Below, one piece after another: positions 39,173 through 61,610 of a stretch of DNA of 64,000 bases. The position numbers and the translations under genes were made by a program. Each line of letters starts with the position of its first letter. The stretch's first letter is position 1. Under the pieces are notes generated by a model. That model saw only the letters and a list, made by a program, of their open reading frames with translations, ran no database searches and was not told where the DNA came from. The DNA is from Sycon ciliatum. Its lineage: Eukaryota; Porifera; Calcarea; Leucosolenida; Sycettidae. The stretch spans positions 11,616,673-11,680,672 of the forward strand of contig NC_088653.1 in NCBI RefSeq assembly GCF_964019385.1, given 5' to 3'.

Positions 39173-39204
<32 letters not shown>

Positions 39205-41325: not shown

Positions 41326-41402
<77 letters not shown>

Positions 41403-41422
41403 CTCTCTCTCTCTCACATGCG

Positions 41423-41489
<67 letters not shown>

Positions 41490-42654: not shown

Positions 42655-42947
42655 GTACGTGGCCACGTTGCGGGCCTAATTCTGCATTGGCCACTGTGCA
42701 CATTGGGGGGGGGGGGGGGTCGAGCCCGTCTCGGGGAGGTTCCGGCCATACCGTGGAGTCCCGATTCCCGGCACCCCTCAGGGACGGACAGCCATCTCCA
42801 GAGTGTTGCTTTTCTTTTTGCTGCTGATGATGCTGCTGCTGCTGCTGCTGATGATGATGATCTATATGAATTTTGATGTGTTGCGTTTTTGCTTGCCCGT
42901 ACAAGAGGCTGTTCAAATGATGATGATGCTGCTGCTGCTGATGATGC

Positions 42948-44357: not shown

Positions 44358-44359
44358 GG

Positions 44360-44416
<57 letters not shown>

Positions 44417-45439
44417 CAAATCTTTATTCTCACGATAGCCAGTGGCCAATAAGAGATAATAGTGTAAGAAAGGAGAAAGAGTGAGGAAGAATTGGGTGGG
44501 CAGGGCCTAGGGGTTAATGACTACTTAAATGTACGGGCACTCGTCGGGCAGGGGTGGTCGCCACACGAGCATAAAGAGTTGCGTACTTAAGTGTACGGGC
44601 AGGGGTGGTCGCTACACGAGCATACAGAGTTGTGCAATAGCAGGGATATCTCGGATTTGAAGGGAGTACGAGAAGGGATTTCGCGAAGCTGGGTGGGCAG
44701 GCAATTAAAGTAATGAAGGGCCTTGTACAGGGGAGAATGGAGACAGCGGTCAGTCCGCGGAGTTGGCAAGTGCCAAGTACGAGAGCGACGTAAATTATAC
44801 GAAGGTTGCACGTTGCTAGCAGTATGCAGCGAGAGTATATGTGGTGGGGCATAATTGTGGCGCAGAGAATGCGCGAAGAGTATATGTTTAACTTTAAAGC
44901 GTGAAAATAATGTTGGCCATTTGATGCGATGCAAAAGGTGGGAGTGTTCTAAGTGTGTGTAAAGGGGAAGGTGGAGACATATTCTGGCGGCTTTCCGCTG
45001 GAGTCGTTCTAGCCTGTCAAGGGAAGTGTGTGACAACGGTGTGAGAGCATTGCTCGCATATGAGAATATAAGTAAGTAAGTAAATTATCGTATCCGTTCC
45101 CGAAGGGAACTCACGACGGCCGCTAACACCCGATAAACCCTAGCGGCAGATGCAGCGCCTAACGGTGGGGGTGAGTGGGTAAGTCTCACAACCACTGGCA
45201 CAAGTGCCGAAAGCGACCCCATTAGCTGCATCCATGTACCCCTTGTGCCTGGCCACAAGTTCCCAGTTGACTGTGGGTAGCAGCACGGCTGGAAAAACCG
45301 CTCCCAGGCAGGACTTGAACCAGGTACCTCTCGTATCTCAATCATGGTCTTTGACCAACCCACTGTGCCTGCATGTATGAGAATATAGGTAGTATGTATG
45401 TCTGATAGATGTGAGATAAAGAATCACTGGTGAGTGTAG
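44358..45439 (-). mobile_element. LINE-B copy 2, 3' part
   Basis: (GTT)n at 44357-44415 is followed by TTTCAAATCTTTATTCTCACG and the 3' UTR. Coding sequence for the RT C-terminus lies at 44587-45036 (minus strand; [15 protein letters not shown] and R-T-W-H-L-P). The copy continues after the palindromic element at 61611. A SINE is inserted at 45071-45375. Confidence 0.88.
45071..45375 (-). mobile_element. tRNA-derived SINE
   Basis: On the minus strand the head reads GGCACAGTGGGTTGG (A-box-like, 45356-45370). It is followed about 35 bp later by GGTTCAAGTCC (B box, complement of 45311-45321), the Pol III promoter spacing of tRNA-derived SINEs. It ends in (TTAC)n. TATGAGAATATA flanks both sides (45059-45070, 45376-45387), a 12-bp target duplication. 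LINE-B copy 1 has this site once at 19049-19060. Length is 305 bp. Confidence 0.85.
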
Positions 45440-45445
45440 ACCTTA
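45440..45445. other. 6-bp target duplication, left (ACCTTA)
   Basis: ACCTTA directly precedes the left end of the palindromic element. It is repeated at 61605-61610, while LINE-B copy 1 has it once (19114-19119). Confidence 0.92.
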
Positions 45446-45478
45446 AGTAGTTAGTGCGGGGCGGGTTCTGGGCCACTT

Positions 45479-45650
45479 TTTGACCTTTGACCTTTGGTCC
45501 AAATAAGGCACACTGTGTCGGTCGTGCTTGGTCTGGCCCCGGGACTTCCCCCAGGGTTTGACCTTTGACCTTTGGGTTAAATAAGGCACACTGTGTCGGG
45601 CGCGCTTGGTCTGGCCCCGGGACTCCCCCAGGGTTCGACCTTTGGCCCTG
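45479..45650. promoter_or_regulatory. Subterminal 78-bp tandem repeat with DR1 motifs (left)
   Basis: Two units 78-80 bp apart each contain TGACCTTTGACCT (45481-45493, 45559-45571), then AAATAAGGCACACTGTGTCGG and GGCCCCGGGACT. TGACCTTTGACCT is the exact complement of AGGTCAAAGGTCA, the DR1 site of RXR/HNF4-type nuclear receptors. A third partial unit (GACCTTTGGCCC) ends near 45650. Binding is not shown. Confidence 0.65.
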
Positions 45651-45680
45651 CCATGTCATAAATGTGCCATAAAGGTTCTT

Positions 45681-45995
45681 TTCGCCATTGATGGCGAATG
45701 TGCACTTGTGCACGTTCGGTGCATTCGCACCAGGGAGTAGTAAAATACGTACTATTCCCTGATTCGCACATCATAGATGTGCATTGCATGCAGCGAATGA
45801 CATATTGCGCATGCGCGCATACGCACGCGGAGCATGTGACCTTCAGTGGTCCTATGCGTGTGGAAAAGATGCAGTGCAACACAAGGTGTACTAGTACACG
45901 TGTCATTATACTACTCCCTGATTCGCACTTCGTAGATGTGCAGCAAACAAGTTCACGTTCCGTGCATTCGTTTTATTCGCACATCGTCGATGTGC
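45681..45995. repeat. Cluster of five small palindromes near left end
   Basis: TTCGCCATTGATGGCGAA (45681-45698) and GTGCACTTGTGCAC follow directly. Three related hairpins come next: GCACATCATAGATGTGC (45766-45782), GCACTTCGTAGATGTGC (45925-45941) and GCACATCGTCGATGTGC (45979-45995). Each of the three is preceded by ATTC. They may be protein-binding or replication sites (inference). Confidence 0.7.
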
Positions 45996-45999
45996 ACTG

Positions 46000-46654
46000 A
46001 TTGACAAGTTGCCCATGCAGAGCATGCCTAATCGGCTTTTCGATCGGTTAAGAGAATGTTCAAATTCGGCCATATTATGAGCCCCAGGATCAGAATTCGG
46101 CTCAACATAGTACTTGAAGTCACCGTTCCCATTACGTCATGTACATTTACATACACCCTGTAGAAGCACTGAAACATCGGTTTTCGGCGAATTCAACATG
46201 CGAATTTTTGAACATTCGGCGAAAAGATGGGTAATTTCTTCAAAACCACTGTTTTCGGTGAATTTTTCGCCCGGCCGATTAGGGAAATGCCTACTATCCA
46301 TGCAGGTACATTAGATGCATATTTCTATTTTGATCGGAATTCAGTTAGAATCAACCGGCTACGCCCGGAGTATCATGCATCAAAACAATTATTGAAGGGG
46401 TGTCACAGTGAAGCAGTGTTGCTACGCACCACAAATCCCCTCTGCCCTGCACCGAATTTATACTGGAGAATCCAGAGTGACCAGCAAAGAGTCACAACCC
46501 GCGGGTATCCAGTCACACTAAGGCATGTCCACCATTCCCCACATATTCACTGTAACAAAACACAATACTGTTTACTATAATACACTTTTATTTAAATGGA
46601 CTTGGATGAGTCTGTAGAAGAGAACACAATGCACGCACACGCACGCATGCGCGG

Positions 46655-46695
<41 letters not shown>

Positions 46696-46969
46696 TCTAG
46701 GTTATAGTGCTATACACGTATCTAGGGTTTAGGAAGCACGAGAATGTGTCGAAGCACCCACACATACCCCTTCATGCAGTGTACTTCAGTAGCCCAACAC
46801 ATTACGACCGCTCAGGACCATCACAAAACACATTACGACTGCACTGTTACTACACTACACACACAGTTACTACACTACGCCTGTTACAAGTACTTACAAA
46901 TAATTTTGAAAACAAATGGCACATCCCGAAGACGGCAGCTAGCTCCAGACCTTCATACATACATCATCA
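46000..46969. other. Left arm, no confident gene
   Basis: This stretch has GGCGAA/TTCGCC-rich sequence (46160-46275), a (CA)n tract (46655-46695) and short ORFs without recognisable features. It is mirrored at 60081-61050. Confidence 0.4.
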
Positions 46970-47454
46970 TCATCTGTAAAACCAAGCATGAGCGCACACA
47001 AACACTATTAGTGTCACGAATACGGAAGCAGGGTAAGACAAGAGGATACGAAACAAGTAAGTATCGCTATAACGAGGGGGATAAGTATACATGTAGACAG
47101 AGCAGTGCTTACTTACAGGGTCCTGATACGCTCCATGGCGTCCCGGTAGTCGGACTGCAACAGCAGCCCGACCTGCCGGCCCTCCCAGTAACGGGCTCGA
47201 TGGGCCGCACCCGCCAGGTGTGCGGCCACGGCTTGGCCTCCCACCAGCCTTTCTCCACTGTAAAAACGAAAAAACCGCAGAAAGCACAGTGTCATAGAGC
47301 TCTTTTGTTGGGGGAGAGAGCTAGGAGCACTGCACACTTACCAAGTATCACAATATATGATAAGAAAGAGGCGGCGCTTGACGCACCGCCTCAGGTGCTG
47401 AAACAGGGGTATTACCCCTGTAAGGCGAACACCGCAATGACACGTGAACGTCAT
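46970..47454 (-). CDS. Small spliced zinc-binding protein, left-arm copy
   Basis: Mirror copy of 59596-60080: exons 47342-47454, 47117-47257 and 46970-46973 on the minus strand. The predicted protein is 85 residues, with C-H-C-G, Q-H-L-R-R-C and, across the first splice, C-D-T-C-G-E-R. It is transcribed divergently from the RING gene at 47731, with about 275 bp between the start codons. See the right-arm entry for reasoning. Confidence 0.55.
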
Positions 47455-47730
47455 TTCTACAGACTGTTTTTCAGGATAATGATACTGAAGTGAAGGTGTG
47501 AACCGCAAAGCAAGACCTTTACCTTCTTCCTGTCGAATCCGCTCCCCAGCTGCATACCGACATCACCCGCTAAAACCCAATCATACCAAGTAACGCAAAG
47601 GTCATCAGTTGACCTTTTGGACTTTTCAACTCTTATCCAAAACCACCAAGAGGAAAAAACCAGGATGAAGAAGACGTCAGTTGTAGAAGCGTTTGTGGAG
47701 GAGTTGTTACATTATTCTCAGTAAATAGAT

Positions 47731-48783
47731 ATGGCTGATACATTCGGTGTAGACGTGGACGACCGGTCGTGGTCTCTCACCACGGGTCCTTTACTAATAG
47801 AAAGGCGGACGCCAATAAGAACTGTTGTGGAGTTGGCAGATCAAAACGCGCAGCAAGAAATTTGGCACGTCGATGGTAGACTCCATCGGGAGGACGGACC
47901 AGCTCTTGTTGATAGTAGGGGAGTGTCCGCCTGGTGCTATGGAGGTCGCCTTCATCGCGTCAATGAACCTGCTTGGATAGGACGGGGTAGCATAGAGTAC
48001 TACCTCAACGGCGCCCGTCATAGAGCCGGCGGTCCTGCAGTCAGTTATTATGACGCCACATGCGGTATTCTACGGTGGTATCACCACGGAAGACTCCACA
48101 GGTATGATGGCCCTGCAGTGGAAACATTTTCAGACCTTGGTGAAGACTCTGAGGGGTTCTACCGACACCGCGAAGAGTGGTATTGGAATGGCGTCAGACA
48201 AAGGATCGGCGACGGCCCCGCTCTGACGGAGAGATTTGATGGCGCCTATTTGCTGGAAGCCTGGTATGTCCAAGGGCGTCTACACAGAGTAGACGGACCA
48301 GCCAGGATCACTCGGAGTGATGATGGTATCACCATCCAGTGGTATTATCACGACCGGCTCCACAGGGAGAATGCGCCAGCCGTGATACGCAGGGAAGGTA
48401 ACAACCGTGTACGGGAGTGGTACCGATACAACCTTCGGCATAGGGAAGATGGGCCTGCTTTCATCTCTCAGGAGGAGGAGGGTATCTATCAGTGGTACCT
48501 CAACGGGGTGTATTACGGTGACCACCATCAAGGCCAGGCAATACACCCCATGGAGCTGCAGTACATCAATGTAGTGCCTACTAAGGTAGACTCGTCAGCA
48601 ATAAGTCATGAGTTCATTTGTGTGATTTGTCAGGATACCCTGGACCGTCCTCTATCCAAGTTGGAGTGTGGTCATGAATTTCACTTCCACTGTATCAAGG
48701 AGTGGATCAGTTCTACCCCCAGCCCTACTTGCCTAACCTGCCGCTACTCCATGACTGCTGAGGACTTGGTTGAGTTCTTGTAG
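47731..48783 (+). CDS. RING-H2 protein with GRLHRxDGPA repeats, left-arm copy
   Basis: Intact, 350 residues. Residues about 45-275 contain seven or eight imperfect repeats of roughly 22-35 residues with the core W-Y/H-x-x-G-R-L-H-R-x-D-G-P-A, for example W-H-V-D-G-R-L-H-R-E-D-G-P-A. Such repeats are known from giant-virus and some cellular proteins of unknown role (general knowledge). Residues about 297-343 form a RING-H2 finger: C-V-I-C, then C-G-H-E-F-H-F-H-C, then C-L-T-C. It is a likely E3 ubiquitin ligase whose repeats may select targets (inference). It converges on the minisatellite side of the arm. The ATG lies in AGATATGGC. Confidence 0.88.
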   Translation: MADTFGVDVDDRSWSLTTGPLLIERRTPIRTVVELADQNAQQEIWHVDGRLHREDGPALVDSRGVSAWCYGGRLHRVNEPAWIGRGSIEYYLNGARHRAGGPAVSYYDATCGILRWYHHGRLHRYDGPAVETFSDLGEDSEGFYRHREEWYWNGVRQRIGDGPALTERFDGAYLLEAWYVQGRLHRVDGPARITRSDDGITIQWYYHDRLHRENAPAVIRREGNNRVREWYRYNLRHREDGPAFISQEEEGIYQWYLNGVYYGDHHQGQAIHPMELQYINVVPTKVDSSAISHEFICVICQDTLDRPLSKLECGHEFHFHCIKEWISSTPSPTCLTCRYSMTAEDLVEFL

Positions 48784-48869
48784 TAATACATCACACAGCT
48801 GCATGTAGGCGACTACGAATGACCAGTCATGTGCTACAGATGGACACGGACATGCCACCCTAAGTAGCC

Positions 48870-49175
48870 ATGAGCGGCTATTTGGACAAGGGCAACAAAG
48901 CACCCCGTGGGCGGCCAAGGTTGACACTAGCCACAAGTCTGGTCGCTCAGTTGAATAAGCTTGGTGTGCCCATGAAGACCATGGAAGACCTTTCCAGGTG
49001 CCGACAACATGCAGAGGACAAGACAGACTGGAAGAAACTGTGCAGCTCGACACTCGAGGACAAATCAGTATCAGCATCTACTACACCTTGCTGATGATGC
49101 TCACAAGACAGAAGGGGGAAAAACACTGAATTTCTTTATTTAGTGCTCAACTACGCGAAATGTGTTATTATTATT
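48870..49175 (+). mobile_element. LINE C-terminal remnant inside left arm
   Basis: The frame reads R-G-R-P-R-L-T-L, then L-S-R-C-R-Q-H-A-E-D-K-T-D-W-K-K-L. It resembles the R-G-R-P-R ... D-R-x-x-W end of the RTE-like ORF at 12377. It is followed by TTTCTTTATTTAG and (TTA)n. This is a decayed insertion that predates the palindrome, since it is mirrored at 57880-58180. Confidence 0.5.
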
Positions 49176-49236
49176 ATACATGTTCAACTGTACTCCGTCT
49201 GGCTGACTGCCATTCTCTACCACACATTACCGGACA

Positions 49237-50435
49237 CTGTTGTGGTTGTCGTCGTTATCGTCGTCGTTGTTGATGTTGTAGTCGGTTGTTGTCGTCGTTA
49301 TCGTCGTCGTTGTTGATGTTGTTATTGGTTGTTGCTGTCGGTTGTTGCCGGTTGTTGTTGGTTGTTGTTGGTTGTTGTTGGTTGTTGTTGATGTTGTTGT
49401 CGGTTGTTGTCGTCGTTATCGTCGTCGTTGTTGATGCTGTTATTGGTTGCTGCTGTCGGTTGTTGCCGGTTGTTGTTGGTTGTTGTTGGTTGTTGTTGGT
49501 TGTTGTTGATGTTGTTGTCAGTTGTTGTCGTCGTTATCGTCGTCGTTGTTGATGTTGTTATTAGTTGTTGCTGTCGGTTGTTGGTTGTTATTGGTTGTTG
49601 CTGTCGGTTGTTGGTTGTTATTGTTGATTGTTGTCGGTTGTTGTTGGCTGTTGGATGTTGTTGTCGGTTGTTGTCGGTTGTTGTTGGTTATTGTTGGTTG
49701 TTGTTGGTTGTTGTTGGGCGTTGTTGGTTGTTGTCGGTTGTTGTCGGTTGTTGTCGGTTGTTGTTGGTTATTGTTGGTTGTTGTTGGTTGTTGTTGGGCG
49801 TTGTTGGTTGTTGTCGGTTGTTGTCAGGTGTTGTTGGTTGTTGTTGCGTGTTGTTGTCGGTTGTTGTCGGTTGTTGTCGGTTGTTGTCGGTTGTTGGGTG
49901 TTGTTGTCGGTTGTTGGGTGTTGTTGTCGGTTGTTGGGTGTTGTTGTTGGTTGGTGTTGGTTGGTGTTGGTTGTTGTTGGTTGTTGTCGGTTGTTGTCCG
50001 TTGTTGTTGGTTGTTGTTGGTTGTTGTTGGCTGTTGTTGGTTGTTGTTGTTTGTTGTTGTCGGTTGTTGGATGTTGTTGTGTGTTGTTGTTGGTTGTAGT
50101 TGGTTGTTGTCAGTTGTTGTTGGTTGTTGGATGTTGTTGTCGGTTGTTGTCGGTTGTTGTCGGTTGTTGTCGGTTGTTGTTGGTTGTTGTTGTTGTTGGC
50201 TGTTGTTGGTTGTTGTTGGCTGTTGTTGGTTGTTGTTGTTTGTTGTTGTCGGTTGTTGGTTGTTGTTTGTTGTTGTTGTTGGTTGTAGTTGGTTGTTGTC
50301 AGTTGTTGTTGGTTGTTGGATGTTGTTGTCGGTTGTTGTCGGTTGTTGTCGGTTGTTGTTGGTTGTTGTTGGCTGTTGTTGGTTGTTTTTGGTTGGTGTT
50401 GGTTGTTGTCGGTTGTTGTCGGTTGTTGTGTTTTA
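49237..50435 (+). repeat. GTTGTTGTCGGTTGTTG minisatellite, left arm (~1.2 kb)
   Basis: Imperfect GTTGTTGGTTGTTGTCG units with larger nested repeats of about 118 bp (GTCGTCGTTATCGTCGTCG-headed, 49250-49560). The right arm has about 1.87 kb of the complement. Long V/C/G/L or T/N/Q ORFs here are artefacts. This is the only large length difference between the arms. Confidence 0.9.
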
Positions 50436-50520
50436 ATCGTTATTTTGTTCATTATCCAGGAGGATGTTGCTATGATCCAGTACCATTTTTTTCGCAAATA
50501 TGAGACAAGTTTGTGTAACG

Positions 50521-50814
50521 TTAGTGTGACGTGGGGTATGCTGATTGGATGTGAGGTGGTGAGAGTATGCTGATTGGCCGATAACAATTAGTGGAAGGGA
50601 TAAAGTAATGCGCTGCTTGTGCAGCGTAACCAAACACATGGTCTGTGGGAAACACCCTAGTAAAATAAATAAAATAATAATAACATGAATTGCCACCGGC
50701 ACTTGAGAGACTCGAGCCCGCCACCTTGTTCAAATCGGACTTGGTAGCTTCATACTGGAACTTAATCTTCTTATTTTGAGGCATGACCGTACAAAACGCG
50801 CTTGGATTTTTCAT
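50521..50814 (-). CDS. Possible 97-aa ORF, left arm (weak)
   Basis: Begins M-K-N-P-S-A-F-C after an A-rich tract. No recognised motif; composition is only modestly protein-like. Mirrored at 55565-55858. It may be non-coding 3' sequence. Confidence 0.2.
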   Translation of the reverse strand: MKNPSAFCTVMPQNKKIKFQYEATKSDLNKVAGSSLSSAGGNSCYYYFIYFTRVFPTDHVFGYAAQAAHYFIPSTNCYRPISILSPPHIQSAYPTSH

Positions 50815-50851
50815 TTTATTTTATTTTTTTATTTTTTTCATTGCAATTTTT

Positions 50852-51211
50852 TTAGCAGATAGCAACTTTTTTAGCAGACTCGTGAAACAACGGTGAATCT
50901 GGAACGAATAAATGGTCCATGTCAAAGGCATGAAGAGTCTCGAAGTCTTCACATTCATGATGGAACCTTGTCATGATTGACGCATTCCTTGATGGTGCGC
51001 ACATGAAATCACCCTGGCTCATCTTTTCCAACTCCATTCTTTTCACATCCTGCAACCCATACCCTACTAGTATCAGTGGGGATGCTAGAATCAGAAGAGG
51101 CAAGGCAGCACTCTTCCGTGGATGTATTACTCGACACAACACCACCCATACTTGTTTTCTAGAAGTTTTGACTATAATGATATATTGCAGCAGGAAGTAG
51201 TATACAGTCAA
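50852..51211 (-). CDS. Unknown ORF downstream of the 246-aa gene, left arm
   Basis: Identical to 55168-55527: a 119-codon open frame with no early ATG, a hydrophobic stretch (LPLLILASPLILVGYGL) and a charged C-terminal half. It could be an exon, a small membrane protein or 3' UTR. See the right-arm entry. Confidence 0.3.
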   Translation of the reverse strand: MTVYYFLLQYIIIVKTSRKQVWVVLCRVIHPRKSAALPLLILASPLILVGYGLQDVKRMELEKMSQGDFMCAPSRNASIMTRFHHECEDFETLHAFDMDHLFVPDSPLFHESAKKVAIC

Positions 51212-51271
51212 ATAGGATAGGATAAGAATGAATGATCAACTGTCTGATAAAGAATGCAGTTCATTAAAGAC

Positions 51272-52012
51272 TTATTGGAAGGTCTCTACCAGCTGATCGT
51301 CATGTCGGACGGCGACACTGCATAATGATATGAAGCTCTCAGTTAGCTGTTTCAGTTCCGTGGTAGAAAGTGTCATGTGTGCGTCCAGAGAACGATGAAA
51401 ACATCTGGGGTCCACGTTGATGCAGACAATTGGAGCAACAGCAAGACGTACCTTCAACGCTTGCTCGTCAATGTCGAGGGAGACTGCCCCGGGGTAGATG
51501 AAAACATCTTGTTCCACATCCAGTTCGAACCAGCTGGTCGGGACTAGCTTGCTTTCACCGTTGATGTACACCCGACATTGACCGTAGGACGAACGTGATG
51601 GGTAGAAGTTGGTCTTGATCTTCTCCACACGTCCTCTTCGGAGAGTGTCACGGAGCGATGGACAAGTCTTGATCAAGTTCGTAATGATGAACTCAGTGGA
51701 CTCATTCAGTTCGATGTAAACCTGTCCTTAAGCATCTTTGCGAGCTGTTGCCGTACTACAACAGGCTGGTAGAGCTCCTGAAGGGAAGTACATCTTATAA
51801 CCAGGCTTGTAGAAGGATCTACCTGATGACTTGTAGGACAGTTGCATGTCCTCCTGAAACCCATCTACCACAATCTCTTTGTGGAGCTTGGTAGGAGCAG
51901 GTGACACATAGCGACGCTTAGCCGGTACTGCCTTCGAAGAGAGCACAACTTGAGGAGGGTCAACAGGAAGAGCGGAATTCTTCCTCACCCGCCGCTCGTA
52001 TAGGTTATCCAT
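51272..52012 (-). pseudogene. Unknown 246-aa gene, left-arm copy with premature stop
   Basis: Mirror copy of 54367-55107. Codon 95 is a stop (TAA at 51728-51730, minus strand), where the right arm has a Gln codon. Apart from this and one other replacement (D vs N), the predicted products agree. The single change shows the arms are beginning to diverge, or that conversion between them is incomplete. Confidence 0.75.
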
Positions 52013-52141
52013 CTTCAAGGAAGCGAAGGGAGAACAACTCATCAGCACTGTATTCGTTGAACGAATGACTCGACTACAGGACAACCACCCGTATTTATAC
52101 AAGGCAGAGACGGAGGCGGGTTGAAGTGATAACATATGTGT

Positions 52142-52276
52142 CAGCTAGGTCAACCAATCACCATCAAGCCCGCCAAAAACATTTGACCACTCAGCATTGA
52201 GCCCACCAAAAACATTTGACCAACCAGCATCAAACCCGCCAAAAGCATTTTGTCCAATCAGCGGCATGCCCACCAA
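52142..52276 (-). promoter_or_regulatory. 33-bp promoter repeats, left arm
   Basis: Mirror of 54103-54237. Four 33-bp units carry CCCGCCAAAA (E2F-like) and CCAATC-type (CCAAT) words, upstream of the 246-aa gene in transcript sense and just after the TFIIB-like gene's stop. Confidence 0.55.
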
Positions 52277-52285
52277 AATCATATC

Positions 52286-53059
52286 TCATCTTAAAGATTC
52301 CTTACATGATACCGCCACTTTAGTAAACTGATACAGTATGGAAATAAGATCAGAGTCAAACGTGTGCAAGTTCTGAATCACGTGATCAAGTGAATAGGTT
52401 TCCCAACAATAGGCATCAATCAATGATGCCATAAGAGATGTATCAGATGGAGATAAAATCAGCAAATTCGTACGCAACGTGGACAGTTGAGAAGAAGACA
52501 CCATCCTGGTCGACTCCATGAGATGCAGTACATATAGGAGTGGAAAATGCTGAGGAAGAGGTTTCATGATTCGACTGAACCTCAACCATGATACATTGCT
52601 ACGAGGTAAGTAGGAACGCAGTTTACGTAGTACATCCACATTCGTATCGTATACTATGCAGGATAATGCTATAGCATAGTTTATACTCTTGTACAAACAG
52701 GATTTTTTCATCGCAAGTATCTGCTCCCGAAGAGTGTGTACGCAAAGCTGATCGGATAAGAGTTCAGTTTTCGAAAGAAAATGCAAAAGATGACGATCCA
52801 CACCGCTTAACCGCTCATGTACCGCGTAAGGCTTCTTCATCAAACTACATCTCCCATGCACATCATCTTCAGGGAAGTAAATCACCGCCATGACAAGTCC
52901 ACACGAAGAACACACGTATCTTCTTTCATGTAAAACATGATCAAGATGTTGACACTGTTTTTCCTCCCCGTATTGCTCTTTTTCTTCTTCTTCTTCATCC
53001 TTCTCATGAAGCCTCCTTTCACGTACATAAGCAGGTAAGATCTTAAATTCAGAATCCAT
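52286..53059 (-). CDS. TFIIB/VLTF3-like zinc-ribbon protein, left-arm copy
   Basis: Identical in translation to 53320-54093; intact, 257 residues from ATG at 53059. TATATAAAG lies 54 bp upstream (53113-53121). The two copies are divergent and their start codons are 260 bp apart across the palindrome centre. Domain reasoning is in the right-arm entry. Confidence 0.75.
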   Translation of the reverse strand: MDSEFKILPAYVRERRLHEKDEEEEEKEQYGEEKQCQHLDHVLHERRYVCSSCGLVMAVIYFPEDDVHGRCSLMKKPYAVHERLSGVDRHLLHFLSKTELLSDQLCVHTLREQILAMKKSCLYKSINYAIALSCIVYDTNVDVLRKLRSYLPRSNVSWLRFSRIMKPLPQHFPLLYVLHLMESTRMVSSSQLSTLRTNLLILSPSDTSLMASLIDAYCWETYSLDHVIQNLHTFDSDLISILYQFTKVAVSCKESLR

Positions 53060-53319
53060 CTTCACTCCTCACCAACATCCTCATTATGACACTATATCCA
53101 GCATGATATCTACTTTATATAACCAATCCTATCCAGGGCAATTATCAGGTACAACCATTGGGGTAGAGGACATCATACCCTCTCCAACACGTCGGGGAGG
53201 GTATGAGGTCCTCTACCCCAATGGTTGTACCTGATAATTGCCCTGGATAGGATTGGTTATATAAAGTAGATATCATGCTGGATATAGTGTCATAATGAGG
53301 ATGTTGGTGAGGAGTGAAG
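53060..53319. promoter_or_regulatory. Palindrome centre and bidirectional promoter region
   Basis: Arms meet around a 14-nt loop (53183-53196, TCCAACACGTCGGG). Immediately flanking stems read CATACCCTC / GAGGGTATG. TATATAAAG boxes sit at 53113-53121 (minus) and 53258-53266 (plus), each 54 bp before an ATG. The stem is very stable and could extrude as a cruciform. Confidence 0.75.
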
Positions 53320-54093
53320 ATGGATTCTGAATTTAAGATCTTACCTGCTTATGTACGTGAAAGGAGGCTTCATGAGAAGGATGAAGAAGAAGAAGAAAAA
53401 GAGCAATACGGGGAGGAAAAACAGTGTCAACATCTTGATCATGTTTTACATGAAAGAAGATACGTGTGTTCTTCGTGTGGACTTGTCATGGCGGTGATTT
53501 ACTTCCCTGAAGATGATGTGCATGGGAGATGTAGTTTGATGAAGAAGCCTTACGCGGTACATGAGCGGTTAAGCGGTGTGGATCGTCATCTTTTGCATTT
53601 TCTTTCGAAAACTGAACTCTTATCCGATCAGCTTTGCGTACACACTCTTCGGGAGCAGATACTTGCGATGAAAAAATCCTGTTTGTACAAGAGTATAAAC
53701 TATGCTATAGCATTATCCTGCATAGTATACGATACGAATGTGGATGTACTACGTAAACTGCGTTCCTACTTACCTCGTAGCAATGTATCATGGTTGAGGT
53801 TCAGTCGAATCATGAAACCTCTTCCTCAGCATTTTCCACTCCTATATGTACTGCATCTCATGGAGTCGACCAGGATGGTGTCTTCTTCTCAACTGTCCAC
53901 GTTGCGTACGAATTTGCTGATTTTATCTCCATCTGATACATCTCTTATGGCATCATTGATTGATGCCTATTGTTGGGAAACCTATTCACTTGATCACGTG
54001 ATTCAGAACTTGCACACGTTTGACTCTGATCTTATTTCCATACTGTATCAGTTCACTAAAGTGGCGGTATCATGTAAGGAATCTTTAAGATGA
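53320..54093 (+). CDS. TFIIB/VLTF3-like zinc-ribbon protein, right-arm copy
   Basis: 257 residues; the ATG at 53320 is preceded by a TATA box (53258-53266). After an acidic leader (E-E-E-E-E-K) residues about 35-60 read C-Q-H-L-D, then R-R-Y-V-C-S-S-C-G-L-V-M. This C-x-H ... C-x-x-C-G-L-V pattern is the N-terminal zinc ribbon of TFIIB-like and large-DNA-virus late transcription factors. The rest is helical in character. One segment (Y-K-S-I-N-Y-A-I-A-L-S-C-I-V-Y) is reminiscent of a cyclin-box helix followed by V-D-V-L-R-K-L, but this is weak. It is probably a basal-type transcription factor directing host Pol II to element genes (inference). Other zinc-ribbon proteins are possible. Confidence 0.75.
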   Translation: MDSEFKILPAYVRERRLHEKDEEEEEKEQYGEEKQCQHLDHVLHERRYVCSSCGLVMAVIYFPEDDVHGRCSLMKKPYAVHERLSGVDRHLLHFLSKTELLSDQLCVHTLREQILAMKKSCLYKSINYAIALSCIVYDTNVDVLRKLRSYLPRSNVSWLRFSRIMKPLPQHFPLLYVLHLMESTRMVSSSQLSTLRTNLLILSPSDTSLMASLIDAYCWETYSLDHVIQNLHTFDSDLISILYQFTKVAVSCKESLR

Positions 54094-54102
54094 GATATGA
54101 TT

Positions 54103-54237
54103 TTGGTGGGCATGCCGCTGATTGGACAAAATGCTTTTGGCGGGTTTGATGCTGGTTGGTCAAATGTTTTTGGTGGGCTCAATGCTGAGTGGTCAAATGT
54201 TTTTGGCGGGCTTGATGGTGATTGGTTGACCTAGCTG
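54103..54237 (+). promoter_or_regulatory. Four 33-bp promoter repeats, right arm
   Basis: Units of the type TTTTGGCGGGTTTGATGCTG followed by GTTGGTCAAATG recur four times. TTTTGGCGGG resembles an E2F site, and GATTGG is a CCAAT box in two units. They lie between the TFIIB-like stop (54093) and the TATA box of the next gene (54280). They suggest S-phase-linked expression (inference). Confidence 0.55.
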
Positions 54238-54279
54238 ACACATATGTTATCACTTCAACTCGCCTCCGTCTCTGCCTTG

Positions 54280-54287
54280 TATAAATA
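54280..54287 (+). promoter_or_regulatory. TATA box of the 246-aa gene
   Basis: TATAAATA, 80 bp upstream of the ATG at 54367. It makes the ATG at 54244, which lies upstream of the TATA box, an unlikely start. The mirror site is 52092-52099. Confidence 0.65.
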
Positions 54288-54366
54288 CGGGTGGTTGTCC
54301 TGTAGTCGAGTCATTCGTTCAACGAATACAGTGCTGATGAGTTGTTCTCCCTTCGCTTCCTTGAAG

Positions 54367-55107
54367 ATGGATAACCTATACGAGCGGCGGGTGAGGAAGA
54401 ATTCCGCTCTTCCTGTTGACCCTCCTCAAGTTGTGCTCTCTTCGAAGGCAGTACCGGCTAAGCGTCGCTATGTGTCACCTGCTCCTACCAAGCTCCACAA
54501 AGAGATTGTGGTAGATGGGTTTCAGGAGGACATGCAACTGTCCTACAAGTCATCAGGTAGATCCTTCTACAAGCCTGGTTATAAGATGTACTTCCCTTCA
54601 GGAGCTCTACCAGCCTGTTGTAGTACGGCAACAGCTCGCAAAGATGCTCAAGGACAGGTTTACATCGAACTGAATGAGTCCACTGAGTTCATCATTACGA
54701 ACTTGATCAAGACTTGTCCATCGCTCCGTGACACTCTCCGAAGAGGACGTGTGGAGAAGATCAAGACCAACTTCTACCCATCACGTTCGTCCTACGGTCA
54801 ATGTCGGGTGTACATCAACGGTGAAAGCAAGCTAGTCCCGACCAGCTGGTTCGAACTGAATGTGGAACAAGATGTTTTCATCTACCCCGGGGCAGTCTCC
54901 CTCGACATTGACGAGCAAGCGTTGAAGGTACGTCTTGCTGTTGCTCCAATTGTCTGCATCAACGTGGACCCCAGATGTTTTCATCGTTCTCTGGACGCAC
55001 ACATGACACTTTCTACCACGGAACTGAAACAGCTAACTGAGAGCTTCATATCATTATGCAGTGTCGCCGTCCGACATGACGATCAGCTGGTAGAGACCTT
55101 CCAATAA
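54367..55107 (+). CDS. Unknown 246-aa element protein, right-arm copy (intact)
   Basis: The start M-D-N-L-Y-E-R-R is chosen because a TATA box lies 80 bp upstream; an in-frame ATG at 54244 would precede it. The N-terminal 45 residues are basic and proline-rich (R-R-V-R-K-N-S, A-K-R-R-Y-V), possibly a nuclear localisation or nucleic-acid-binding region. The remainder is hydrophobic/charged alternating and beta-like, with W-F-E-L and F-I-Y-P-G-A-V-S-L. No family was recognised. It follows the TFIIB-like gene on the same strand. The left-arm copy is interrupted by a stop. Confidence 0.75.
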   Translation: MDNLYERRVRKNSALPVDPPQVVLSSKAVPAKRRYVSPAPTKLHKEIVVDGFQEDMQLSYKSSGRSFYKPGYKMYFPSGALPACCSTATARKDAQGQVYIELNESTEFIITNLIKTCPSLRDTLRRGRVEKIKTNFYPSRSSYGQCRVYINGESKLVPTSWFELNVEQDVFIYPGAVSLDIDEQALKVRLAVAPIVCINVDPRCFHRSLDAHMTLSTTELKQLTESFISLCSVAVRHDDQLVETFQ

Positions 55108-55167
55108 GTCTTTAATGAACTGCATTCTTTATCAGACAGTTGATCATTCATTCTTATCCTATCCTAT

Positions 55168-55527
55168 TTGACTGTATACTACTTCCTGCTGCAATATATC
55201 ATTATAGTCAAAACTTCTAGAAAACAAGTATGGGTGGTGTTGTGTCGAGTAATACATCCACGGAAGAGTGCTGCCTTGCCTCTTCTGATTCTAGCATCCC
55301 CACTGATACTAGTAGGGTATGGGTTGCAGGATGTGAAAAGAATGGAGTTGGAAAAGATGAGCCAGGGTGATTTCATGTGCGCACCATCAAGGAATGCGTC
55401 AATCATGACAAGGTTCCATCATGAATGTGAAGACTTCGAGACTCTTCATGCCTTTGACATGGACCATTTATTCGTTCCAGATTCACCGTTGTTTCACGAG
55501 TCTGCTAAAAAAGTTGCTATCTGCTAA
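55168..55527 (+). CDS. Unknown ORF after the 246-aa gene, right arm
   Basis: A 119-codon open frame identical in both arms. It has no ATG until codon 59. Its first half contains a hydrophobic stretch (LPLLILASPLILVGYGL) and its second half is charged (F-H-H-E-C-E-D-F-E). It may be a downstream exon, a small membrane protein with a non-standard start, or the 3' UTR of the preceding gene. A-rich AATAAA-like tracts follow at 55545-55565. Confidence 0.3.
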   Translation: MTVYYFLLQYIIIVKTSRKQVWVVLCRVIHPRKSAALPLLILASPLILVGYGLQDVKRMELEKMSQGDFMCAPSRNASIMTRFHHECEDFETLHAFDMDHLFVPDSPLFHESAKKVAIC

Positions 55528-55564
55528 AAAAGTTGCAATGAAAAAAATAAAAAAATAAAATAAA

Positions 55565-55858
55565 ATGAAAAATCCAAGCGCGTTTTGTACGGTCATACCT
55601 CAAAATAAGAAGATTAAGTTCCAGTATGAAGCTACCAAGTCCGATTTGAACAAGGTGGCGGGCTCGAGTCTCTCAAGTGCCGGTGGCAATTCATGTTATT
55701 ATTATTTTATTTATTTTACTAGGGTGTTTCCCACAGACCATGTGTTTGGTTACGCTGCACAAGCAGCGCATTACTTTATCCCTTCCACTAATTGTTATCG
55801 GCCAAATAGCATACTCTCACCACCTCACATCCAATCAGCATACCCCACGTCACACTAA
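55565..55858 (+). CDS. Possible 97-aa ORF, right arm (weak)
   Basis: Starts with ATG inside an A-rich tract. No motif. It differs from the left copy by two residues. Coding is unproven. Confidence 0.2.
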   Translation: MKNPSAFCTVIPQNKKIKFQYEATKSDLNKVAGSSLSSAGGNSCYYYFIYFTRVFPTDHVFGYAAQAAHYFIPSTNCYRPNSILSPPHIQSAYPTSH

Positions 55859-55943
55859 CGTTACACAAACTTGTCTCATATTTGCGAAAAAAATGGTACT
55901 GGATCATAGCAACATCCTCCTGGATAATGAACAAAATAACGAT

Positions 55944-57813
55944 TAAAACACAACAACCGACAACAACCGACAACAACCAACACCAACCAAAAACAACCAA
56001 CAACAGCCAACAACAACCAACAACAACCGACAACAACCGACAACAACCGACAACAACATCCAACAACCAACAACAACTGACAACAACCAACTACAACCAA
56101 CAACAACAACAAACAACAACCAACAACCGACAACAACAAACAACAACAGCCAACAACAGCCAACAACAACCAACAACAGCCAACAACAACAACAACAACA
56201 ACAACAACCAACAACAACCGACAACAACCGACAACAACCGACAACAACCGACAACAACATCCAACAACCAACAACAACTGACAACAACCAACTACAACCA
56301 ACAACAACACACAACAACATCCAACAACCGACAACAACAAACAACAACAACCAACAACAGCCAACAACAACCAACAACAACCAACAACAACGGACAACAA
56401 CCGACAACAACCAACAACAACCAACACTAACCAACACCAACCAACAACAACACCCAACAACCGACAACAACACCCAACAACCGACAACAACACCCAACAA
56501 CCGACAACAACCGACAACAACCGACAACAACCGACAACAACACGCAACAACAACCAACAACACCTGACAACAACCGACAACAACCAACAACGCCCAACAA
56601 CAACCAACAACAACCAACAATAACCAACAACAACCGACAACAACCGACAACAACCGACAACAACCAACAACGCCCAACAACAACCAACAACAACCAACAA
56701 TAACCAACAACAACCGACAACAACCGACAACAACATCCAACAGCCAACAACAACCGACAACAATCAACAATAACAACCAACAACCGACAGCAACAACCAA
56801 TAACAACCAACAACCGACAGCAACAACTAATAACAACATCAACAACGACGACGATAACGACGACAACAACTGACAACAACATCAACAACAACCAACAACA
56901 ACCAACAACAACCAACAACAACCGGCAACAACCGACAGCAGCAACCAATAACAGCATCAACAACGACGACGATAACGACGACAACAACCGACAACAACAT
57001 CAACAACAACCAACAACAACCAACAACAACCAACAACAACCAACAACAACGGACAACAACCGACAACAACCAACAACAACCAACACCAACCAACACCAAC
57101 CAACAACAACACCCAACAACCGACAACAACACCCAACAACCGACAACAACACCCAACAACCGACAACAACCGACAACAACCGACAACAACCGACAACAAC
57201 ACGCAACAACAACCAACAACACCTGACAACAACCGACAACAACCAACAACGCCCAACAACAACCAACAACAACCAACAATAACCAACAACAACCGACAAC
57301 AACCGACAACAACCGACAACAACCAACAACGCCCAACAACAACCAACAACAACCAACAATAACCAACAACAACCGACAACAACCGACAACAACATCCAAC
57401 AGCCAACAACAACCGACAACAATCAACAATAACAACCAACAACCGACAGCAACAACCAATAACAACCAACAACCGACAGCAACAACTAATAACAACATCA
57501 ACAACGACGACGATAACGACGACAACAACTGACAACAACATCAACAACAACCAACAACAACCAACAACAACCAACAACAACCGGCAACAACCGACAGCAG
57601 CAACCAATAACAGCATCAACAACGACGACGATAACGACGACAACAACCGACAACAACATCAACAACAACCAACAACAACCAACAACAACCAACAACAACC
57701 GGCAACAACCGACAGCAACAACCAATAACAACATCAACAACGACGACGATAACGACGACAACAACCGACTACAACATCAACAACGACGACGATAACGACG
57801 ACAACCACAACAG
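55944..57813 (-). repeat. GTTGTTGTCGGTTGTTG minisatellite, right arm (~1.87 kb)
   Basis: Complement of the left-arm array, with 671 more net bases. The segment 56839-57528 repeats much of 56091-56869, so the extra length looks like one internal duplication. There is also a pure (CAA)n stretch at 56183-56208 missing on the left. Confidence 0.9.
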
Positions 57814-57879
57814 TGTCCGGTAATGTGTGGTAGAGAATGGCAGTCAGCCAGACGGAGTACAGTTGAACATGTATAATAA

Positions 57880-58180
57880 TAATAACACATTTCGCGTAGT
57901 TGAGCACTAAATAAAGAAATTCAGTGTTTTTCCCCCTTCTGTCTTGTGAGCATCATCAGCAAGGTGTAGTAGATGCTGATACTGATTTGTCCTCGAGTGT
58001 CGAGCTGCACAGTTTCTTCCAGTCTGTCTTGTCCTCTGCATGTTGTCGGCACCTGGAAAGGTCTTCCATGGTCTTCATGGGCACACCCAGCTTATTCAAC
58101 TGAGCGACCAGACTTGTGGCTAGTGTCAACCTTGGCCGCCCACGGGGTGCTTTGTTGCCCTTGTCCAAATAGCCGCTCAT
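57880..58180 (-). mobile_element. LINE C-terminal remnant inside right arm
   Basis: Mirror of 48870-49175, with identical translation for the R-G-R-P-R-L-T-L segment. Confidence 0.5.
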
Positions 58181-58266
58181 GGCTACTTAGGGTGGCATGT
58201 CCGTGTCCATCTGTAGCACATGACTGGTCATTCGTAGTCGCCTACATGCAGCTGTGTGATGTATTA

Positions 58267-59319
58267 CTACAAGAACTCAACCAAGTCCTCAGCAGTCATG
58301 GAGTAGCGGCAGGTTAGGCAAGTAGGGCTGGGGGTAGAACTGATCCACTCCTTGATACAGTGGAAGTGAAATTCATGACCACACTCCAACTTGGATAGAG
58401 GACGGTCCAGGGTATCCTGACAAATCACACAAATGAACTCATGACTTATTGCTGACGAGTCTACCTTAGTAGGCACTACATTGATGTACTGCAGCTCCAT
58501 GGGGTGTATTGCCTGGCCTTGATGGTGGTCACCGTAATACACCCCGTTGAGGTACCACTGATAGATACCCTCCTCCTCCTGAGAGATGAAAGCAGGCCCA
58601 TCTTCCCTATGCCGAAGGTTGTATCGGTACCACTCCCGTACACGGTTGTTACCTTCCCTGCGTATCACGGCTGGCGCATTCTCCCTGTGGAGCCGGTCGT
58701 GATAATACCACTGGATGGTGATACCATCATCACTCCGAGTGATCCTGGCTGGTCCGTCTACTCTGTGTAGACGCCCTTGGACATACCAGGCTTCCAGCAA
58801 ATAGGCGCCATCAAATCTCTCCGTCAGAGCGGGGCCGTCGCCGATCCTTTGTCTGACGCCATTCCAATACCACTCTTCGCGGTGTCGGTAGAACCCCTCA
58901 GAGTCTTCACCAAGGTCTGAAAATGTTTCCACTGCAGGGCCATCATACCTGTGGAGTCTTCCGTGGTGATACCACCGTAGAATACCGCATGTGGCGTCAT
59001 AATAACTGACTGCAGGACCGCCGGCTCTATGACGGGCGCCGTTGAGGTAGTACTCTATGCTACCCCGTCCTATCCAAGCAGGTTCATTGACGCGATGAAG
59101 GCGACCTCCATAGCACCAGGCGGACACTCCCCTACTATCAACAAGAGCTGGTCCGTCCTCCCGATGGAGTCTACCATCGACGTGCCAAATTTCTTGCTGC
59201 GCGTTTTGATCTGCCAACTCCACAACAGTTCTTATTGGCGTCCGCCTTTCTATTAGTAAAGGACCCGTGGTGAGAGACCACGACCGGTCGTCCACGTCTA
59301 CACCGAATGTATCAGCCAT
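58267..59319 (-). CDS. RING-H2 protein with GRLHRxDGPA repeats, right-arm copy
   Basis: Translation is identical to 47731-48783 (350 residues, intact). Conservation of both copies without a stop, despite a nonsense change in the 246-aa gene, indicates recent duplication. It is oriented toward the palindrome centre, opposite to the other three genes of the arm. Confidence 0.88.
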   Translation of the reverse strand: MADTFGVDVDDRSWSLTTGPLLIERRTPIRTVVELADQNAQQEIWHVDGRLHREDGPALVDSRGVSAWCYGGRLHRVNEPAWIGRGSIEYYLNGARHRAGGPAVSYYDATCGILRWYHHGRLHRYDGPAVETFSDLGEDSEGFYRHREEWYWNGVRQRIGDGPALTERFDGAYLLEAWYVQGRLHRVDGPARITRSDDGITIQWYYHDRLHRENAPAVIRREGNNRVREWYRYNLRHREDGPAFISQEEEGIYQWYLNGVYYGDHHQGQAIHPMELQYINVVPTKVDSSAISHEFICVICQDTLDRPLSKLECGHEFHFHCIKEWISSTPSPTCLTCRYSMTAEDLVEFL

Positions 59320-59595
59320 ATCTATTTACTGAGAATAATGTAACAACTCCTCCACAAACGCTTCTACAACTGACGTCTTCTTCATCCTGGTTTTTTCCTC
59401 TTGGTGGTTTTGGATAAGAGTTGAAAAGTCCAAAAGGTCAACTGATGACCTTTGCGTTACTTGGTATGATTGGGTTTTAGCGGGTGATGTCGGTATGCAG
59501 CTGGGGAGCGGATTCGACAGGAAGAAGGTAAAGGTCTTGCTTTGCGGTTCACACCTTCACTTCAGTATCATTATCCTGAAAAACAGTCTGTAGAA

Positions 59596-60080
59596 ATGAC
59601 GTTCACGTGTCATTGCGGTGTTCGCCTTACAGGGGTAATACCCCTGTTTCAGCACCTGAGGCGGTGCGTCAAGCGCCGCCTCTTTCTTATCATATATTGT
59701 GATACTTGGTAAGTGTGCAGTGCTCCTAGCTCTCTCCCCCAACAAAAGAGCTCTATGACACTGTGCTTTCTGCGGTTTTTTCGTTTTTACAGTGGAGAAA
59801 GGCTGGTGGGAGGCCAAGCCGTGGCCGCACACCTGGCGGGTGCGGCCCATCGAGCCCGTTACTGGGAGGGCCGGCAGGTCGGGCTGCTGTTGCAGTCCGA
59901 CTACCGGGACGCCATGGAGCGTATCAGGACCCTGTAAGTAAGCACTGCTCTGTCTACATGTATACTTATCCCCCTCGTTATAGCGATACTTACTTGTTTC
60001 GTATCCTCTTGTCTTACCCTGCTTCCGTATTCGTGACACTAATAGTGTTTGTGTGCGCTCATGCTTGGTTTTACAGATGA
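59596..60080 (+). CDS. Small spliced zinc-binding protein, right-arm copy
   Basis: Exons 59596-59708, 59793-59933 and 60077-60080. Donors are GTAAGT and acceptors TTTTTACAG/TTTTACAG. Exon lengths 113 and 141 bp join in frame, and the third exon contributes one base and a TGA. The 85-residue product has C-H-C-G then F-Q-H-L-R-R-C (C-x-C...H-x3-C) and, created by the first splice, Y-C-D-T-C-G-E-R, a second pair of cysteines. The C-terminal half is helical (Y-W-E-G-R-Q-V-G-L-L-L-Q-S-D-Y-R-D-A). It is probably a treble-clef or C2HC zinc protein of unknown role. The phase match and the cysteine pair across the junction are the main evidence. The start could lie further upstream in another exon. 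Confidence 0.55.
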
Positions 60081-60354
60081 TGATGATGTATGTATGAAGG
60101 TCTGGAGCTAGCTGCCGTCTTCGGGATGTGCCATTTGTTTTCAAAATTATTTGTAAGTACTTGTAACAGGCGTAGTGTAGTAACTGTGTGTGTAGTGTAG
60201 TAACAGTGCAGTCGTAATGTGTTTTGTGATGGTCCTGAGCGGTCGTAATGTGTTGGGCTACTGAAGTACACTGCATGAAGGGGTATGTGTGGGTGCTTCG
60301 ACACATTCTCGTGCTTCCTAAACCCTAGATACGTGTATAGCACTATAACCTAGA

Positions 60355-60395
<41 letters not shown>

Positions 60396-61050
60396 CCGCG
60401 CATGCGTGCGTGTGCGTGCATTGTGTTCTCTTCTACAGACTCATCCAAGTCCATTTAAATAAAAGTGTATTATAGTAAACAGTATTGTGTTTTGTTACAG
60501 TGAATATGTGGGGAATGGTGGACATGCCTTAGTGCGACTGGATACCCGCGGGTTGTGACTCTTTGCTGGTCACTCTGGATTCTCCAGTATAAATTCGGTG
60601 CAGGGCAGAGGGGATTTGTGGTGCGTAGCAACACTGCTTCACTGTGACACCCCTTCAATAATTGTTTTGATGCATGATACTCCGGGCGTAGCCGGTTGAT
60701 TCTAACTGAATTCCGATCAAAATAGAAATATGCATCTAATGTACCTGCATGGATAGTAGGCATTTCCCTAATCGGCCGGGCGAAAAATTCACCGAAAACA
60801 GTGGTTTTGAAGAAATTACCCATCTTTTCGCCGAATGTTCAAAAATTCGCATGTTGCATTCGCCGAAAACCGATGTTTCAGTGCTTCTACAGGGTGTATG
60901 TAAATGTACATGACGTAATGGGAACGGTGACTTCAAGTACTATGTTGAGCCGAATTCTGATCTTGGGGCTCATAATATGGCCGAATTTGAACATTCTCTT
61001 AACCGATCGAAAAGCCGATTAGGCATGCTCTGCATGGGCAACTTGTCAAT
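60081..61050. other. Right arm, no confident gene
   Basis: Mirror of 46000-46969: a (TG)n tract near 60355-60395, TTCGCC/GGCGAA-rich sequence and no recognisable coding sequence. Confidence 0.4.
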
Positions 61051-61054
61051 CAGT

Positions 61055-61369
61055 GCACATCGACGATGTGCGAATAAAACGAATGCACGGAACGTGAACT
61101 TGTTTGCTGCACATCTACGAAGTGCGAATCAGGGAGTAGTATAATGACACGTGTACTAGTACACCTTGTGTTGCACTGCATCTTTTCCACACGCATAGGA
61201 CCACTGAAGGTCACATGCTCCGCGTGCGTATGCGCGCATGCGCAATATGTCATTCGCTGCATGCAATGCACATCTATGATGTGCGAATCAGGGAATAGTA
61301 CGTATTTTACTACTCCCTGGTGCGAATGCACCGAACGTGCACAAGTGCACGTTCGCCATCAATGGCGAA
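61055..61369. repeat. Cluster of five small palindromes near right end
   Basis: Mirror of 45681-45995: hairpins at 61055-61071, 61109-61125, 61268-61284 and 61352-61369, plus the GTGCACAAGTGCAC palindrome. Confidence 0.7.
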
Positions 61370-61399
61370 AAGAACCTTTATGGCACATTTATGACATGG

Positions 61400-61571
61400 C
61401 AGGGCCAAAGGTCGAACCCTGGGGGAGTCCCGGGGCCAGACCAAGCGCGCCCGACACAGTGTGCCTTATTTAACCCAAAGGTCAAAGGTCAAACCCTGGG
61501 GGAAGTCCCGGGGCCAGACCAAGCACGACCGACACAGTGTGCCTTATTTGGACCAAAGGTCAAAGGTCAAA
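61400..61571. promoter_or_regulatory. Subterminal 78-bp repeat with DR1 motifs (right)
   Basis: Mirror of the left end. AGGTCAAAGGTCA occurs exactly at 61479-61491 and 61557-61569, so the element carries four perfect DR1 motifs in total. Confidence 0.65.
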
Positions 61572-61604
61572 AAGTGGCCCAGAACCCGCCCCGCACTAAC
61601 TACT

Positions 61605-61610
61605 ACCTTA
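61605..61610. other. 6-bp target duplication, right (ACCTTA)
   Basis: Follows the right end ...CTAACTACT and precedes LINE-B sequence GTCTAAAAAG, as in the uninterrupted copy at 19120. Confidence 0.92.

Follow-up and report, generated by a model that had tools for sequence, protein, structure and literature searches.

The genome of the calcareous sponge Sycon ciliatum holds dozens of 13–17-kb elements that have the ends of Polintons (Mavericks) and in which one half repeats the other in inverted orientation. One of them, here called the window element, occupies positions 45446–61604 of the window, the whole 64,000-nucleotide stretch that was analysed (assembly GCF_964019385.1, contig NC_088653.1, positions 11,616,673 to 11,680,672). 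The explanation we favour, with moderate confidence, is that these multi-copy palindromes are produced by protein-primed strand displacement in which the displaced strand snaps back on itself, and that ordinary Polintons supply the integrase.

The window element is a palindrome with Polinton ends

The window element is 16,159 bp long. Both of its ends start with the same 16 bp, AGTAGTTAGTGCGGGG, giving AGTAGT//ACTACT termini, and ACCTTA stands directly outside on both sides. An earlier note on this DNA had given these coordinates, Polinton-type ends, a 6-bp duplication and a length near 16 kb, and all were as described. It had also claimed two inverted arms around a 14-nt loop. Alignment of the full arms confirmed this structure, with 18 substitutions in 7,744 aligned bp (the loop and tip account for 4/18) and 671 bp of indel within a minisatellite. 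Identity between the arms by BLAST is 98.4–98.6%. The following features were located.

45440–45445, unstranded: left target-site duplication ACCTTA, directly outside the element
45446–45461, plus strand: left element end, AGTAGTTAGTGCGGGG (sequence)
45446–53182, plus strand: left arm (inverted alignment)
45479–45644, plus strand: subterminal 78-bp tandem repeat, 2.1 copies, left arm (repeat search)
49266–50429, plus strand: minisatellite, left arm (repeat search)
53183–53196, unstranded: central loop TCCAACACGTCGGG, 14 nt, with the core AACACGTC that is common to other copies of its family (P1, below) in either orientation
53197–61604, minus strand: right arm, inverted copy with 671 bp more of the array (inverted alignment)
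55950–57812, minus strand: minisatellite, right arm, the longer one (repeat search and arm alignment)
61406–61571, minus strand: subterminal 78-bp tandem repeat, 2.1 copies, right arm (repeat search)
61589–61604, minus strand: right element end, AGTAGTTAGTGCGGGG (sequence)
61605–61610, unstranded: right target-site duplication ACCTTA, directly outside the element

There are no short terminal inverted repeats (TIRs) around a unique centre; the inverted repeat is the whole element around its 14-nt loop. In vertebrate Mavericks, according to the available part of one survey, 5'-(AGT)2//(ACT)2-3' is the commonest end motif, duplications are 6 bp, TIRs measure 46–1,447 bp and lengths run from 12.7 to 24.6 kb (PMC8097293). 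Those TIR lengths support the view that here the TIR is effectively the whole element. The window element resembles Polintons/Mavericks in its (AGT)2//(ACT)2 ends, its 6-bp duplication, its size within about 13–25 kb and a terminal repeat common to elements of the same genome that bear integrase and protein-primed DNA polymerase B (pPolB). It differs in being wholly inverted repeat and in having no integrase or polymerase in the six of its open reading frames (ORFs) that were tested.

Palindromic copies are dispersed through the genome

The genome searched comprises 313 contigs with a total of 538.4 Mb. With a 1-kb query spanning the left end, 42 matches at 91–100% identity were obtained, many as inverted pairs. 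The 16-bp end, allowing ≤2 mismatches, was found at 204 forward and 227 reverse places, compared with 111 and 121 for a reversed-pattern control. Among the 100 exact end places listed of 431, 42 inverted pairs were counted by eye, 41/42 with a spacing of 10.6–17.7 kb and 1/42 with a spacing of 24.6 kb. From 36/42 pairs and the window element (n = 37), both ends and the centre were retrieved. The pairs outside this sample (C3:36951064, C7:34376092, C9:29011135, C9:33287679, C10:26122443 and C11:8685468) were excluded, in most cases because their spacing was odd or several ends lay close together, and the sample is thus biased toward regular copies.

A perfect 6-bp duplication flanks 36/37 elements, L036 being the exception, and the centre is inverted in 33/37. 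The earlier note had turned on whether other copies with the same ends exist and whether they are all non-palindromic. Copies were found, dispersed and with different duplications, and only four of those sampled are non-palindromic. Grouping by centre sequence gave two palindromic families, P1 (n = 24, including the window element) and P2 (n = 9), and the non-palindromic elements (n = 4). P1 centres are 94–100% alike across the 24 elements. Loop length, scored with a coarse script, is 0–16 nt in 18/33 elements with an inverted centre.

Palindromes are a known class of assembly artefact, and another inverted structure in the window is centred on a gap of N. That fold-back reads or misjoins made the elements studied here is nevertheless scarcely credible, as matching 6-bp duplications lie within different flanks in 36/37 elements, the window arms differ in array length, and copies occur on many contigs.

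Three exact reverse ends 1,013 bp apart were seen at C9:29028827-29030868, representing nested or repeated element ends.

P1 arms are alike within elements except at the tip

P1 arms are far more alike within than between elements, the tip excepted. At the arm ends, 17/24 P1 elements have 0 mismatches over about 1.29 kb (range 0–19), and the nearest arm of another element differs by 0–48 over the same arm end. The within-element difference is smaller than that to the nearest other element in 21/24 cases; L036, L084 and L105 tie at 0. For 16 P1 elements a tree was built from the inner 2.4 kb. In it the two arms of an element are exact sisters in 13/16, compared with an average of 0.44 and at most 5 across 1000 shuffled sets. 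Under plain linear copying the arms would have separated at the origin of the palindrome, earlier than these copies, and hence would not be sisters.

Arm–arm mismatches in the same 16 elements were found at 9/400 sites within 25 bp of the tip, 14/7052 sites at 25–500 bp, 8/12807 at 500–1300 bp and 13/15264 at 1300–2400 bp. The corresponding ratios of within- to between-element divergence, from the tip outward, are 0.57, 0.057, 0.025 and 0.042. These elements have different duplications and one common tip core, and tip variants are common to subsets of them. The core reads AACACGTC in 5 elements and GACGTGTT in 7, and 4 have both halves. The asymmetric tip is inherited as a unit, in both orientations, while differences between the arms get erased. 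The stem of a full-length hairpin would be open to mismatch repair and its unpaired tip would not, which would exempt the tip from homogenization.

The main rival explanation is an element with long TIRs whose arms are kept alike after insertion by chromosomal gene conversion between them. The arms of large sex-chromosome palindromes are kept alike by gene conversion, and both the arm identity and the escaping tip of P1 would also fit conversion tracts that seldom extend to the centre. However, 0 differences in 17/24 dispersed copies would require frequent conversion at the majority of sites. Furthermore, the arms of L075 differ at 19/1284 positions of the arm end, as expected for drift after insertion, and the 671-bp array difference persists between the window arms. 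We consider conversion after insertion a serious contender, though an unlikely one. Homogenization at the time of copying is favoured because identity is near-complete in most dispersed P1 copies and the arms of L075 were free to diverge.

Ordinary Polintons of the same genome

The four ordinary (non-palindromic) elements are 15.47–15.49 kb each.

C2:32810202, ordinary element
C3:41488639, ordinary element
C7:3759955, ordinary element
C8:31523920, ordinary element

Their terminal repeats match end to end over 421–433 bp. Over 5 kb of centre the elements are 99.8–99.98% identical, and therefore they moved recently. Gene content was drawn from about 9.7 of the 15.5 kb. The centre encodes an rve integrase (6.6e-11), and the same ORF gave below-cut-off matches to an adenovirus-type protease (4.6e-4) and a chromodomain (2.2e-4). 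Also in the centre are a P-loop ORF with weak matches only (best 0.008; ATPase-like, below cut-off) and a Bcl-2 family protein (PF00452, 3.3e-15; L046:3997-4566). A zinc-ribbon ORF at one end is 39% identical over 62 aa to the zinc-ribbon ORF of the window element.

Toward the other end, three exon pieces match a 929-aa viral ORF in order (2e-13, 2e-25 and 4e-16). The middle piece also shows 55% identity to 1189-aa ORFs from loci of this genome that score with PF03175 (DNA_pol_B_2). Their identity as pPolB is based on the viral ORF, which was found by motif and which we take to carry polymerase motifs, and on co-location with PF03175 matches. The viral ORF itself has no Pfam match at 0.01. Pfam also missed the exon pieces, and the PF03175 search did not list the polymerase of the ordinary elements, in our opinion because of introns. 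To judge by genes and ends, the four ordinary elements are Polintons. They are relatives with polymerase and integrase of the kind that the earlier note had proposed to look for, having the same ends, an integrase and pPolB exons. Over the first 420 bp, mean identity to the ordinary elements is 94.0% for P1 and 94.9% for P2.

P2 arms double the polymerase end

Alignment identifies the P2 arms as copies of the 5.4-kb polymerase end of the ordinary element. Four of the nine P2 elements were compared with the 1.29-kb ordinary polymerase end, and their ends are 93–96% identical to it; the left end of L051 matches it in pieces only. At the edge of the ordinary centre lie 167 bp that are 96–97% identical to P2 arms, and homology ends after them. 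This breakpoint lies 5411 bp from the element end in the ordinary element and 5389–5411 bp from it in 12/14 P2 arms (seven elements measurable on both arms), the other two distances being 5762 and 5939 bp. L015 has one measurable arm, at 7559 bp, and L018 has none, the piece being too short.

Compared by eye, a pPolB exon is present on both arms, in inverted orientation, in 9/9 P2 elements and once in each of the four ordinary elements. Among the matches listed (150 of 153 exons), none falls in the 24 P1 intervals. The same 150 exons include 31 neighbour pairs ≤25 kb apart, of which 28/31 converge; converging pairs make up 18/20 in the close lineage and 10/10 in diverged lineages. Facing pairs outside the sampled elements are known from exon positions alone. 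Those of diverged pPolB ORFs are candidates for further palindromic Polintons, and the following are pairs of long ORFs (1186–1269 aa, 6–8 kb across).

C1:6025848-6034049, facing pPolB ORFs, diverged lineage
C3:2883455-2891446, facing pPolB ORFs, diverged lineage
C3:26403404-26409422, facing pPolB ORFs, diverged lineage
C8:31971537-31977737, facing pPolB ORFs, diverged lineage
C9:13211536-13217770, facing pPolB ORFs, diverged lineage
C13:27666510-27672762, facing pPolB ORFs, diverged lineage
C14:11494140-11500344, facing pPolB ORFs, diverged lineage

Since P2 arms copy one ordinary end, and several centres and spacer lengths occur, each palindrome might be a one-off dead end made anew from an ordinary Polinton and inserted once. 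This is very improbable. The common tip core and subset-shared tip variants of 16 P1 elements with different duplications, and P1 centres 94–100% alike, indicate that the palindrome itself was propagated, and in P2 one breakpoint is common to 12/14 measured arms.

A foldback transposon of another superfamily (P/Galileo type), Polinton-like at its ends only, was also considered. Transposons of that type are known to have very long inverted repeats that contain tandem arrays, with exchange between the repeats (PMC4168063, available part), and the window element likewise has long inverted repeats with tandem arrays. However, Galileo has 7–8-bp duplications and a P-type transposase, and its second-longest repeats in the text available measure about 1.6 kb in a 4.3-kb copy (PMC4168063), as against AGTAGT ends and 6-bp duplications here. 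In addition, the terminal repeats are 94–95% shared with integrase- and pPolB-bearing elements, and a polymerase end lies inside P2. The shared terminal repeat largely refutes this explanation, which we hold to be very improbable.

An ORF at the P2 hairpin tip (L094, L019) resembles the start of a Harbinger-type transposase; Pfam gave no match for it.

A proposed snap-back model for copying and spread

Copying would proceed by protein-primed strand displacement. A palindrome would originate when the polymerase switches strands and copies back toward its starting end. The resulting single molecule would have an identical origin and integrase site at either end, and every strand displaced from it could fold on itself as a full-length hairpin. 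Mismatches between the arms would be repaired in the stem and not in the unpaired tip, and copying of the hairpin would return a palindrome with equalized arms. Insertion would be carried out in trans by integrase from ordinary Polintons.

Several results weigh against this model. It is inferred from sequence, with neither a replication intermediate nor an episome or transcript observed. Post-insertion gene conversion would equally make the two arms alike. In the inner-arm tree the within-element distance is smaller than that to the nearest other arm in only 11/16 elements; L021, L036, L084, L105 and L117 fail, with distances ≤0.0034. At the tip, 7/9 mismatches represent one site in two inherited variants. 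Because there were only about four independent events, the Fisher P of 1e-9 for the tip excess is overstated. Not all centres are tight, as 12/33 loops scored 79–1448 nt and 2/33 gave no loop length, and L021, which has the common 8-nt core, scored 53 nt. In P2 the within-element arm difference is strictly lower than the between-element one in only 4/9 elements, with 3/9 ties at 0 and 2/9 contrary cases: L018 (1 within, 0 between) and L015, whose right end is other DNA. Finally, P1 arms match the ordinary element only in two segments of about 555 and about 412 bp and in the minisatellite, and their TFIIB-like ORF is reversed.

Simple doubling of the other end of the ordinary element was tried as the origin of P1 and rejected, since gene order and orientation differ. 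No parent end was identified for P1.

To our knowledge Polinton replication has never been watched directly. Under the snap-back model, palindromic copies would be a readable trace of it, in which arm differences record the fate of the copied strands and the tip serves as an internal control. The occurrence of facing pPolB pairs in several diverged lineages of one genome suggests that protein-primed copying regularly yields palindromes as a by-product and that these can become a lineage of their own. More tentatively, the palindromes may be a self-complementary life form of Polintons, consisting of one arm and a hairpin tip, with arms that are rewritten from one another whenever the element is copied and a gene set divided among cooperating molecules; they would then be stable partner segments and not mere defectives. 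A possible, and equally doubtful, division of genes would give P2 the polymerase, P1 a transcription-factor-like and RING module, and ordinary elements the integrase and protease.

Genes of the window element

Each arm of the window element carries the same three ORFs.

47725–48783, plus strand: RING-finger ORF (PF00097, 3.5e-8), left arm, also containing LHREDGPA-type repeats (seen by eye)
58267–59325, minus strand: same RING-finger ORF, right arm (ORF list)
51272–52144, minus strand: DUF ORF (unknown family), left arm, with an interrupting stop (ORF list)
54235–55107, plus strand: same DUF ORF, right arm, open (ORF list)
52286–53068, minus strand: zinc-ribbon (TFIIB-like) ORF, left arm, adjoining the tip (TFIIB likeness by motif)
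53311–54093, plus strand: same zinc-ribbon ORF, right arm, adjoining the tip (ORF list)

The RING finger is the sole Pfam match among the six ORFs tested, and PF08271 matched weakly, only in a relative of the zinc-ribbon ORF. No pPolB exon lies in the window element among the 150 exons listed. The earlier note had proposed a non-autonomous class. That description suits the window element, but it is too narrow for the class as a whole because P2, a second palindromic family, has pPolB exons on both arms. The window element was not classed as a Polinton because pPolB, integrase and a unique centre, on which we base that assignment, were not found in it. It is a palindrome with Polinton ends that is likely mobilized in trans.

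The zinc-ribbon and DUF genes are kept open across copies. Counting from codon 42, 35/39 full-length arm matches have an open zinc-ribbon ORF. For the DUF ORF the figure is 36/38 arm matches, and the two with a stop include the left copy in the window. Pooled pairwise dN/dS, from pairs that are non-independent, is 0.66 for the zinc-ribbon ORF and 0.61 for the DUF ORF. An in-frame stop occupies 51728–51730 in the left-arm DUF ORF, and the right arm is without it, a difference best read as decay of one arm after insertion.

Homologues of the DUF and zinc-ribbon ORFs numbered 7 and 4, respectively, among the matches listed. AlphaFold2 gave poor models of the TFIIB-like and DUF proteins (mean pLDDT 49.0 and 34.4). 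Foldseek with the TFIIB-like model returned best E values of 1.1 (PDB) and 0.24 (viral), and this result was not used. Back-translated patterns detected no relative of the TFIIB-like protein, the DUF protein or the polymerase exon in IMG/VR. The 16-mer AGTAGTTAGTGCGGGG occurs in three IMG/VR contigs, which was taken as chance.

Comparison with known systems

The closest parallels are two kinds of defective viral genome. In symmetric defective adenovirus genomes one end of a protein-primed linear genome is doubled as an inverted repeat. Those are transient defectives, whereas the elements described here are inherited mobile families. A search of open-licence PMC papers for adenovirus symmetric genomes found none. 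Snap-back defective genomes of adeno-associated virus (AAV) are similar in that replication errors give snap-back double-stranded DNA with one end doubled (PMC8235507, available part). One end doubled around a breakpoint is also what 12/14 measured P2 arms have. AAV differs in being a parvovirus with hairpin ends that is not protein-primed, and its snap-back genomes are not integrated families with duplications.

Cryptophyte Polinton-like viruses are, in the available part of their survey, likewise integrated, with TIRs of hundreds to thousands of bp and often 6-bp duplications (PMC12220804). That survey kept inserts of 6–80 kb and TIRs of 100 bp–8 kb, and the string 'palindrom' occurs 0 times in the text available. 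Because 6–80-kb inserts were required, an element with a loop as its only insert would have been missed. More generally, such elements would be overlooked by any annotation in which a minimum insert between TIRs is required. Teratorn differs in being a herpesvirus–piggyBac fusion of 41–182 kb with a unique region between its repeats (PMC6431247, available part). Polintons and foldback elements are already known; a whole-length palindromic Polinton family is absent from the open-licence literature searched, in which no palindromic Polinton or foldback kin was found among PMC papers as judged from listings.

Other features of the window

An Rfam scan of the window gave no match. A second large inverted structure, at 29659–42853, has arms 88–97% identical and is centred on 200 N (gap 36301–36500). 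The ORFs on both of its strands resemble exons of a CNNM gene. This structure is probably two allelic contigs scaffolded head to head and no biological palindrome. Minus-strand ORFs at 12377–15394 and 43334–44506 resemble, by eye, the reverse transcriptases of non-long-terminal-repeat retrotransposons.

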